Shown: piece after piece, positions 20,666 through 22,187 of the stretch
Layout of the letters: every line of letters starts with the position of its first letter
Position numbering within the stretch: position 1 is the stretch's first letter
DNA from: Bacteroides cellulosilyticus
GTDB taxonomy: Bacteria; Bacteroidota; Bacteroidia; Bacteroidales; Bacteroidaceae
DNA: 64,000 bases
NCBI RefSeq assembly: GCF_020091405.1
Contig: NZ_CP081903.1
Coordinates: forward strand, 3,720,501 to 3,784,500
Direction: 5' to 3'
Notes under the pieces: generated by a model
Database searches by the model: none
Seen by the model: only the letters and a program-made list of their open reading frames with translations
What the model was told of the DNA's origin: nothing
Position numbers and translations under genes: made by a program

Positions 20666-20681
20666 TGTGCAGAAATGAGTT

Positions 20682-20756
20682 TTCACCACAGAGTAACACA
20701 GAGTCTCACGGAGTTCTATTTTTTTGATTTCAAATTGATTAAACTCTGTGAGACTC
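20682..20756. repeat. REP-like hairpin, left part, interrupted by the IS
   Basis: The left arm (20682-20715, starting TTCACCACAGAG) is complementary to a right arm that is cut in two: 20741-20756 (AAACTCTGTGAGACTC) before the IS and 22079-22099 (TCTGTGTTACTC...) after it. Joining them restores a stem of about 34 bp with a few mismatches. Confidence 0.8.
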
Positions 20757-20794
20757 CTTTAGATTTGCATTACTAAAACTTAGGGTTGAAATAT

Positions 20795-20802
20795 TACCTT
20801 TG
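20795..20802 (+). promoter_or_regulatory. -7 element for the IS110 non-coding RNA
   Basis: TAccTTTG in the left end of the IS is placed to start transcription near 20809, directly before the structured region. Confidence 0.55.
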
Positions 20803-20808
20803 TAGTTA

Positions 20809-20970
20809 ATAAGAGTTAACCAAGGGAAGCGGGTGACCTATTGTGAGATCTAGGCAGAAGCCCTATACACAGAACTAGTCCTGCCTCCCTTTTCAGTTGA
20901 ATCGTCCCAATTAGAATTTTAGGTCGTTGGCCTATTAAAGGATTTAGTGAGTTCAACCTATGGTTAACTT
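20809..20970 (+). ncRNA. Predicted IS110 bridge RNA
   Basis: Two imperfect hairpins with large internal loops lie between promoter and recombinase gene. The first is closed by 20822-20833 with 20880-20891, the second by GTTGAA 20896-20901 with TTCAAC 20952-20957; GTTAACCA 20815-20822 could alternatively pair with 20961-20968. Loop 1 holds TGTGAGA (20842-20848), identical to the target left of the insertion (20747-20753), and ACACAGA (20867-20873), complementary to core plus right target (22079-22085). Loop 2 holds TTAGAATT (20911-20918), identical to the right end of the IS (22072-22079), and TAAAGGA (20936-20942), complementary to core plus left end (20755-20761). Order and strands agree with target and donor guides described for the IS621 bridge RNA. 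The RNA ends are estimates. Confidence 0.82.
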
Positions 20971-20990
20971 CAAATAAGTAATGCGAAGTT

Positions 20991-21992
20991 ATGAAAAAGA
21001 AATGGTTTATTGGCATTGACATCAGTAAAAAAACACTTGATGTTGTTATTTACGATCCCGCAAAGAAACATGCGGATGAGACAAACTACAAGCAAGTCTC
21101 GAATAATAAAACGGGTTATCAAGCATTGTTTGCCTGGATGAAGCAGAAGCGTATTTCTCCTAAACAGACTGTCATCTGCTTGGAGAATACAGGCATTTAC
21201 AGCTATGATTTATGTCTGTTTTTAGAGTCATGTAAACAAGATTACAGTTCTTTCACTCCTCTGGATTTAAAGCGTTCTCTGGGGCTTGTCCGTGGAAAGA
21301 ATGACCGTGTGGATGCCGAGCGGATAGCTTACTACGGTTACTTGCATCGGGATGAATTGACCTATTCCAAACTTTCCGGCAGTGCTGTCCTTATCTTGCG
21401 TGACTTGTCGTCCGAAAGGAAACGCCTGGTTAAGCATCTGACTGAAAACAAGGGATTTATCACGGACAGAAAAGACCGGGAGTCCACCTCTACGAGCAGG
21501 CGGGCAGAAGAAATGGTTAAGATTCTGGAAAAACAAATTCAAAGCGTAGAAGATGAGATGCACGGGATTGTCAGCTCTGATCCGACTATGAACTTAAACT
21601 ATCAGCTTCTTAACAGCATTAAAGGGATTGGTAGTGTTAATGCCATCAATACAATCATACATACTAATAATTTCAAGGCATTTGAAACCGCACGGCAATA
21701 TGCCTGTTATCTGGGTATTGCCCCTTTTGAACATTCTTCAGGAACCAGTGTGAAAGGGAAAACAAGGGTATGTGCTACGGGAGCCAGACTATTGAAAGCG
21801 GATCTATCGCAGGCTGCAAGATCGGCCGTTGTATGGGATAAGGAACTCAAAGAGTATTATGAAAGGAAAAGAAAAGAGGGAAAAGAACATGGAGTAGTGC
21901 TGAATGCGGTAAAGTTTAAACTTGTGTGCAGAATGTTTGCAGTAGTCAGAAGAGGGACACCCTTTGTTGATTTAATCACGTATAAAGAATAA
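20991..21992 (+). CDS. IS110-family recombinase (transposase)
   Basis: This 333-residue protein has the N-terminal RuvC-like DEDD domain (FIGIDISKKTLDVVI with first Asp; CLENTGIYS with Glu; KNDRVDAERIAYYGY with the last acidic pair) and the C-terminal Transposase_20 domain (LNSIKGIGSVNAINTIIHT; CYLGIAPFEHSSGTSVKGK, with the conserved catalytic Ser region). All key residues are present and the frame is intact, so the element may be active. The bridge RNA is encoded just upstream, as in the IS110 group proper. Confidence 0.92.
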   Translation: MKKKWFIGIDISKKTLDVVIYDPAKKHADETNYKQVSNNKTGYQALFAWMKQKRISPKQTVICLENTGIYSYDLCLFLESCKQDYSSFTPLDLKRSLGLVRGKNDRVDAERIAYYGYLHRDELTYSKLSGSAVLILRDLSSERKRLVKHLTENKGFITDRKDRESTSTSRRAEEMVKILEKQIQSVEDEMHGIVSSDPTMNLNYQLLNSIKGIGSVNAINTIIHTNNFKAFETARQYACYLGIAPFEHSSGTSVKGKTRVCATGARLLKADLSQAARSAVVWDKELKEYYERKRKEGKEHGVVLNAVKFKLVCRMFAVVRRGTPFVDLITYKE

Positions 21993-22031
21993 ACGAGCAG
22001 GGAAGCATTACGCTCCACTACTCGTTTGGTT
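21990..22031 (+). terminator. Terminator of the IS110 recombinase gene
   Basis: A 7-bp outer stem AAACGAG/CTCGTTT (21991-21997 with 22021-22027), a bulged inner stem and a following GGTTTT tail begin inside the stop codon. Confidence 0.6.
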
Positions 22032-22187
22032 TTATTAACAGTGTTTTTAGACCGAATTATTTGCTCAGGTCTTAGAATTCTGTGTTACTCTGTGGTGAAT
22101 TAATTCATTCATAACCTTACAGAAAGGAATTATGCCTATATGTTTTGCTACAGGACAATCAATAGAATTGAAACTTTGTAATCTCTG

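Follow-up and report, generated by a model that had tools for sequence, protein, structure and literature searches.

The question raised by this locus is how an insertion sequence of Bacteroides cellulosilyticus selects the site at which it inserts, and whether that choice is encoded by the element itself. The window, that is the whole stretch of 64,000 nucleotides that was analysed, carries an element for which the original prediction had claimed membership of the IS110 family and a bridge RNA whose guides can be read directly against its own target and donor sites. Such an RNA is known from IS621 of E. coli, for which the consulted sections of Durrant 2024 (PMC11208160) and Hiraizumi 2024 (PMC11208158) describe a two-loop layout, and from IS1111/IS110 elements, in which the seekRNA, a guide from the non-coding region, selects the target according to the part of PMC11187229 consulted. 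The analysis presented here indicates that the element in the window is very probably an IS110-group insertion sequence with recent activity and an IS621-like mode of action.

The element, its ends and its core

The element, its surroundings and its gene are as follows:
20680..20756, no strand assigned: left part of an interrupted palindromic intergenic repeat of ~85-100 bp, ending in TGTGAGAC and the core TC; empty copies are present elsewhere in the genome
20747..20754, + strand: left target, TGTGAGAC
20755..20756, + strand: core dinucleotide TC, left copy, from comparison of both junctions with empty sites
20757..22078, + strand: IS110-group insertion sequence, in six identical genomic copies
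20991..21992, + strand: DEDD recombinase of 333 aa with conserved D10, E65, D105, D108 and S250
21991..22027, + strand: hairpin AAACGAG...CTCGTTT followed by a T-rich stretch, terminator-like as seen in the sequence
22072..22078, + strand: right end, TTAGAAT
22079..22080, + strand: core TC, right copy, from the same comparison
22081..22099, + strand: right target TGTGTTAC and the rest of the repeat

Empty copies of the repeat read TGTGAGAC-TC-TGTGTTAC, while the left junction is TGTGAGAC-TC-CTTTAG and the right junction TTAGAAT-TC-TGTGT. TC is the only overlap among the strings that both junctions share with the empty site, and the core was therefore assigned as TC and the element as 20757-22078, an intact IS110-group insertion sequence of 1,322 bp without the core. 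The predicted identity thus stands, whereas the predicted interval, 20755..22080, had included both copies of the core. It is unlikely that the core is in fact a CT like that of IS621, one base away and with core positions mismatched between donor and target: a CT is present across the target as well (GACTCTG) and CU adjoins the hairpin in the left guide, but TC alone is common to both junctions and the empty site, all 25 unique right guides (see below) have a register that places NC at the core, and in the homologue L199 the first core base is G at the left junction, as in both of its target guides, and A at the right junction. Junctions and empty sites accordingly give TC in place of the CT dinucleotide that is a feature of the IS621-like subgroup.

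Six full copies were found in the genome (6.94 Mb, one contig) among 74 places matching part of the queried stretch, and these copies are without any difference across the 1,322 bases compared. The recombinase frame, predicted to be intact together with its acidic residues, is indeed open and the same in all six, and its product matches PF01548 (DEDD_Tnp_IS110, 76.5 bits) and PF02371 (Transposase_20, 72.7 bits), both above the cut-off. D10, E65, D105 and D108, taken as the DEDD acids, and S250, taken as the catalytic serine, are invariant among 24 homologues and align with IS621 and ISCro4; the protein matches ISCro4 (9t56) and IS621 (8wt6) along nearly its whole length, although the IS621 recombinase is a distant relative (profile match E 6.7e-35). 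The six identical copies suggest that the element is functional, and by analogy with IS621 its recombinase may be programmable. The same genome contains two distant IS110-family matches, at G000:C1:3192687-3193631 (34% identical) and 5846730-5847098 (24%, part of the query).

Four guides in a folded leader

The leader between the left end and the gene contains the following features:
20815..20968, + strand: bridge RNA, closing stem GTTAACC (20815-20821) with GGTTAAC (20962-20968); fold z -2.28
20823..20890, + strand: target-binding loop, stem 20823-20833 with 20880-20890, inner hairpin 20851-20865; from fold and covariation
20842..20848, + strand: left target guide TGTGAGA, followed by a U wobble at 20849; equals the target at 20747-20753
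20867..20873, + strand: right target guide ACACAGA, able to pair with core and right target (TC-TGTGT); reverse complement of TCTGTGT at 22079-22085
20896..20957, + strand: donor-binding loop, stem 20896-20901 with 20952-20957, inner hairpin 20920-20934; from fold and covariation
20911..20917, + strand: left donor guide TTAGAAT, equal to the right end of the element; TTAGAATT at 20911-20918 equals 22072-22079
20936..20942, + strand: right donor guide TAAAGGA, able to pair with TC-CTTTA (core and left end); reverse complement of TCCTTTA at 20755-20761

Reading of the sequence and location of the motifs bore out every coordinate that had been given for the four guide segments, as well as their order and strand. 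The complementarity of the loops to target and donor thus follows LTG-RTG-LDG-RDG, as is characteristic of the IS110 group. Among 20,000 dinucleotide shuffles of the 222-nt leader none gave four ordered matches of at least 7, as compared to 74 with matches of at least 6 and 5,198 with matches of at least 5, and the guide pattern is therefore not attributable to chance. The base following the left target guide, noted earlier as a U facing C of the target, does allow a U.G wobble; past the seven exact bases U,C,U face C,T,C of the target as wobble, mismatch and wobble, and the left guide of this element therefore hardly pairs with the core, unlike the left guides of the homologues L062 and L063, which do. 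A bulged-C version of the left guide, one base shorter than the target, was dropped as unnecessary; the spacing from anchor to left guide varies among relatives. In the left donor guide the next two bases, U and U, face T of the core (match) and C (wobble). The A at 20874, after the right target guide, could pair with the donor T that precedes the core, a position corresponding to the handshake guides described for IS621-type bridge RNA in a consulted section of PMC11208158.

The leader folds into two stem-loops within the closing stem, with a z of -2.28 (2 of 200 shuffles were as good). Covariance folding with homologues had been suggested as a check, and in an alignment of 20 elements 24 of the 27 pairs are changed on both sides. 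In this alignment 89.0% of cells are paired as compared to 72.6% when shuffled and 47-52% when slid by one, with a covariation score of 0.534 versus 0.231, albeit that this alignment had itself served in part to derive the structure, which favours the real over the slid versions. A covariance model, R1, was built on the 20 elements. It finds the RNA in the six copies and gives no other match in the genome at E<=1; among 74 further loci it has hits with E<1e-6 in 60, a set that includes near-duplicates of the 20. No bridge-RNA family was matched in Rfam; three matches far under the gathering scores were taken as chance. As in the IS110 group, the left end is long and non-coding and carries a two-loop RNA 5' of the gene. 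For the right-end bridge RNA of the IS1111 group, R1 matches the left-end leader only in each copy, bearing in mind that it was built from left-end RNAs and may miss a very different right-end RNA, and that only ~86 nt lie between gene and end.

Guides change with targets and ends among homologues

The recombinase matched 3,993 proteins, of which the best 120 were listed, and DNA of homologues was taken from whole genomes with a match, the own genome being included in each count: 42 of 158 genomes of the genus, 29 of 399 of the family (E<=1e-40), 12 of 393 of the order (1e-55) and 7 of 395 of the class (1e-60). Further homologue DNA comprised 79 named loci, from the best 80 of 188 matches. Plasmid and phage records gave no DNA match to the element at megablast sensitivity, and viral contigs gave one weak homologue.

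Homologues whose loops do not covary with their targets had been named as evidence that would count against the guides; instead, different loop sequences go with matching, different targets. The nearest homologue, L062 (74% identical), has guides for TGTGTTC-TC / TC-CGTGG and is inserted in TGCGTTC-TC-TGTGG, while L063 (56% identical) has guides for GTCGAAC-TC / CC-ACGTT and is inserted in TATCGAAC-TC-ACGTT. The left guide, parsed in 56 of 152 distinct element loci and giving 32 unique guides, scores a mean of 8.17/10 against its cognate target and 4.74 against non-cognate targets, and the right guide, parsed in 66 of the 152 and giving 25 unique guides with a right end, 5.94/7 and 3.84; for neither did any of 20,000 permutations reach the cognate value, where the permutations count each guide once, otherwise ignore kinship of the elements and include misparsed rows. 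For 27 of the 32 left guides no other target outscored the cognate one (at least one of the five misses, L199, is due to a wrong loop anchor), and for 19 of the 25 right guides the cognate was best, with six missed; the same best register, out of five allowed, was obtained for 25 of 25 right guides. An earlier parse of the left guide had given 22 unique guides, 7.84 versus 4.77, and the cognate target as best in 17.

The donor guides similarly agree with the ends, here as listed rows without permutation. Of the 12 rows that have a right end, 10 show a left donor guide equal to it at 7/7 (L098 and L118 score 5), the exact matches comprising four different sequences, TTAGAAT, CTATATT, CTAGATT and CTATAAT. 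The right donor guide reaches at least 6/7 in 22 of 26 rows as the best of many positions, is lower in L145, L150, L166 and L176, and follows the left ends CCTTTA, CTTTTA and CATTTA. Marine and freshwater Bacteroidota relatives are found repeatedly at AACGTGTTTC or AACGTTTTGC-like sites (L143-L145, L148-L151, L153, L154, L156, L159, L163, L168; L115-L119, L122, L123, L215), apparently repeats of their own genomes.

Site choice in the genome

Other copies of the element in targets lacking the predicted pattern would have spoken against guidance by the loops. All six genomic copies lie in TGTGAGAC-TC-TGTGT, at the same point of one arm of the palindromic repeat, in six loci that are alike only within the repeat. 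We compared 53 sites, namely the 6 occupied and all 47 empty ones that match TGTGANACTCTGTGT either exactly (8) or with a single mismatch (39). Sites reading TGTGAGACTCTGTGT are filled in 6 of 9 cases, leaving three perfect sites without an insertion, as compared to 0 of 44 for the remaining sites (Fisher p=3.7e-6). The sequence CGTGAGACTCTGTGT, found mostly as the opposite arm of such repeats, has C for T at the first base matched by the guide, and sites of this kind are filled in 0 of 9 cases (p=0.0045 versus TGTGAGACTCTGTGT). The genome, for example at L007-L023, contains a family of these palindromic intergenic repeats of ~85-100 bp (ACCACAGAGTAACACAGAG...CTCTGTGTTACTCTGTGGT); a Y1 transposase (PF01797, REP-associated) that might explain the repeat was sought in this genome, and none was found at E<=0.001.

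It is very improbable that the six copies stem from segmental duplication or recombination between repeats and not from six insertions. The copies are identical and the repeats similar, as such an origin would have it, but comparison of the flanks over 1.4 kb on each side showed that similarity ends with the repeat, reaching no further than 119 nt to the left and 53 nt to the right, and the repeat copies around the six insertions differ from one another. As flank similarity is confined to the repeat, the six copies look like separate insertions, whereas gene conversion of the insertion sequence alone may lie behind their identity.

Direct recognition of the palindromic repeat by the recombinase, with guide-like segments that are relics or arose by coincidence, is less probable still: the targets are palindromes and REP elements attract several insertion sequences (consulted part of PMC1525189), yet the four guides arise in none of the 20,000 shuffles, the guides of relatives change with their targets beyond all 20,000 permutations per guide, and T to C at the first guide-matched base leaves sites unused (6/9 versus 0/9).

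Points against an IS621-like reading are the poor pairing of the left guide with the core, the TC core, the misses among cognate targets (5/32 left, 6/25 right) and the three empty perfect sites.

A predicted promoter split across the ends and the proposed mechanism

Promoters of Bacteroides have the -33/-7 consensus TTTG / TAnnTTTG. The left end of the element starts with TTTAGATTTG, which is a TAnnTTTG box, and the following features bear on transcription of the leader:
20760..20767, + strand: TAGATTTG, -7-type box (TAnnTTTG) at the left end, 20 nt from the right-end TTTG once the ends join
20795..20802, + strand: TACCTTTG, a second, internal -7-like box just 5' of the bridge RNA, seen in the sequence
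22060..22063, + strand: TTTG, the -33-type half of a promoter that circle formation would assemble

The TAnnTTTG box is present in 41 distinct relatives, the element in the window included, and in 16 of these a right-end 7-mer equals the element's own donor-loop 7-mer. When the ends of these 16 are joined, TTG stands exactly 20 nt before the box in 16 of 16, as compared to 0 of 16 for the integrated left flank, several of the 16 being close kin. In L093 and L098 the spacing is also 20, though the right end is not exactly the donor guide; nine other rows have an end-like 7-mer not equal to the donor guide and lack such a TTG, and 14 rows are without a candidate end. A cruder first test had placed a box pair at the junction in 15 of 37 rows (14 at 20 nt) and in the integrated flank in 5 of 37. 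Given the constant 20-nt spacing on joining, we therefore predict that the circle would assemble a Bacteroides-type promoter. The internal box TACCTTTG could drive basal transcription of the integrated copy; similar boxes are visible in several relatives.

The proposed course of events begins with circularisation of the element, which would join TTAGAAT-TC-CTTTAG and set the right-end TTTG 20 nt before the left-end TAGATTTG, creating the promoter from which the leader would be transcribed and fold into the bridge RNA. In the cell the first loop would pair with the repeat arm TGTGAGAC-TC-TGTGT, with the left guide on the bottom strand and the right guide on the top strand, and the second loop with the joined ends, upon which the RuvC-like/serine recombinase would swap strands at the TC core and thereby insert the element in the repeat.

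Relation to known systems

The element belongs to an already known kind: it has the testable features of the IS110 group and differs from IS621 in core, promoter type and targets. The circular intermediate with abutted ends, a further feature of the group, is represented here by the predicted junction promoter only. As in IS621, judged by the consulted sections on that element, the bridge RNA lies in the left end upstream of a related recombinase, the guides follow the order LTG, RTG, LDG, RDG with the same strand choice, and insertion is in REP-type repeats. A promoter at the RE-LE junction is likewise shared, in IS621 a sigma70 promoter across the joined ends and here a predicted one of two Bacteroides-type halves. 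In contrast to IS621, the element is from another bacterial group, its recombinase is distant, its guides and repeat are different, its core is TC and not CT, and its stem closes both loops, whereas the IS621 RNA is described with a 5' stem-loop. The new details are the TC core instead of CT and the predicted Bacteroides-type promoter split across the two ends.

With seekRNA elements of the IS110 type the element shares a non-coding region upstream of the gene and natural reprogramming between relatives (consulted part of PMC11187229), but it is from another bacterial group and its donor loop is evident. Several insertion sequences, ISPpu9, ISPpu10 and ISPa11 among others, insert specifically into repetitive extragenic palindromes (Tobes and Pareja 2006, PMC1525189, in the part consulted); here the repeat family is different, and the guide match accounts for both arm and position. 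Among open-access papers on IS110 elements with bridge RNA and Bacteroides or REP, a scope with subscription papers mostly and preprints wholly outside it, we recognised none on this element. It provides a clean, self-checking natural case of bridge-RNA targeting outside the E. coli elements in which the mechanism was worked out, with specificity measured directly in one genome from six insertions, nine perfect sites and 44 near-miss sites, and it makes available a recombinase whose core differs and whose promoter signals suit Bacteroides.

Relatives with several target loops

The covariance-model search gave bridge-RNA-like matches downstream of, or additional to, the usual place in some relatives. 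Judging from sequence comparison, the element in the window is probably the simple single-guide form of a Bacteroidota IS110 lineage with duplicated and split bridge-RNA modules, whose multi-loop members, with two or more target-binding loops that differ in their guides and some with two recombinases and a separate downstream donor-loop RNA, would be natural multi-guide bridge recombinases, as copies of the same element match different loops. Among the open-access papers listed on the subject we recognised no description of multi-guide relatives; if these multi-loop relatives, split RNAs and paired recombinases are confirmed, nature multiplexes bridge RNAs.

Two tandem recombinase frames, 240-492 nt apart, are present in nine loci (eight from Prevotella or Prevotellaceae). 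IS110 elements with two recombinases, of ~2.7-2.9 kb, were seen at L127, L132, L142, L146, L152, L160, L162, L169 and L176/L241, and also at L233, L234 and L237, and within one genus 8 of 249 genomes contain relatives of the first frame, of which two share no more than 36-38% identity. By eye, the layout comprises an RNA with a target loop only 5' of ORF1, usually another between the frames (its loop is anchored in 9 of the 11 elements reaching that far, the exceptions being L162 and L234), then a complete two-loop RNA, and after ORF2 a separate RNA with a donor loop similar to the ends of the element itself. L146 and L152 represent a single element (98% identical; 2.73 and 2.78 kb) with different flanks and with sharp ends outside both frames, L146 being without some 46 nt within the last RNA.

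Among scorable insertion sites of multi-loop relatives most, not all, fit one loop or another. In the two-recombinase group, where right scores of 6/7 carry little weight alone as they also occur in unused loops, the site of L152 fits the first loop (left 8/9, right 7/7; second loop 5/9, 4/7) and that of L146 the second (9/9, 6/7; first loop 5.5/9, 4.5/7). The second loop is also fitted by the sites of L169 (8/9, 7/7; first loop 5.5/9, 6/7) and, on the left only, L237 (8.5/9), and the first by those of L142 and L241 (9/9 each, with 6.5/7 and 6/7) and, on the left only, L238 and L240 (8/9), both from the genome of L241. For L162, L132, L234 and L239 no loop reaches 7/9 on the left, the first loop of L234 scoring 6/7 on the right, and L160 is without a left score; L233 gave 7/9 and 6/7 for the first loop in one scoring, the loop being unanchored in another. 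Permutation for the first loop only, over 13 loci on the left (several of them representing one element) and 7 on the right, gave p=0.0002 and 0.00085, respectively.

A group with a single recombinase includes L101, L103, L106 and L107, with two tandem target loops, and also L172 and L104. The sites of L106 and L107, which have the same loops, and of L103 fit the upstream loop with 9, 8 and 8 of 9 (other loop 5.5, 5 and 6.5), while that of L101 fits the downstream loop (9; other loop 5). In L172 and L104 the downstream loop alone is anchored and fits the site (9 and 8); L102, L109, L110, L112 and L114 were unscorable or gave no match. In this group a second two-loop RNA lies downstream of the gene, followed in several by a small ORF.
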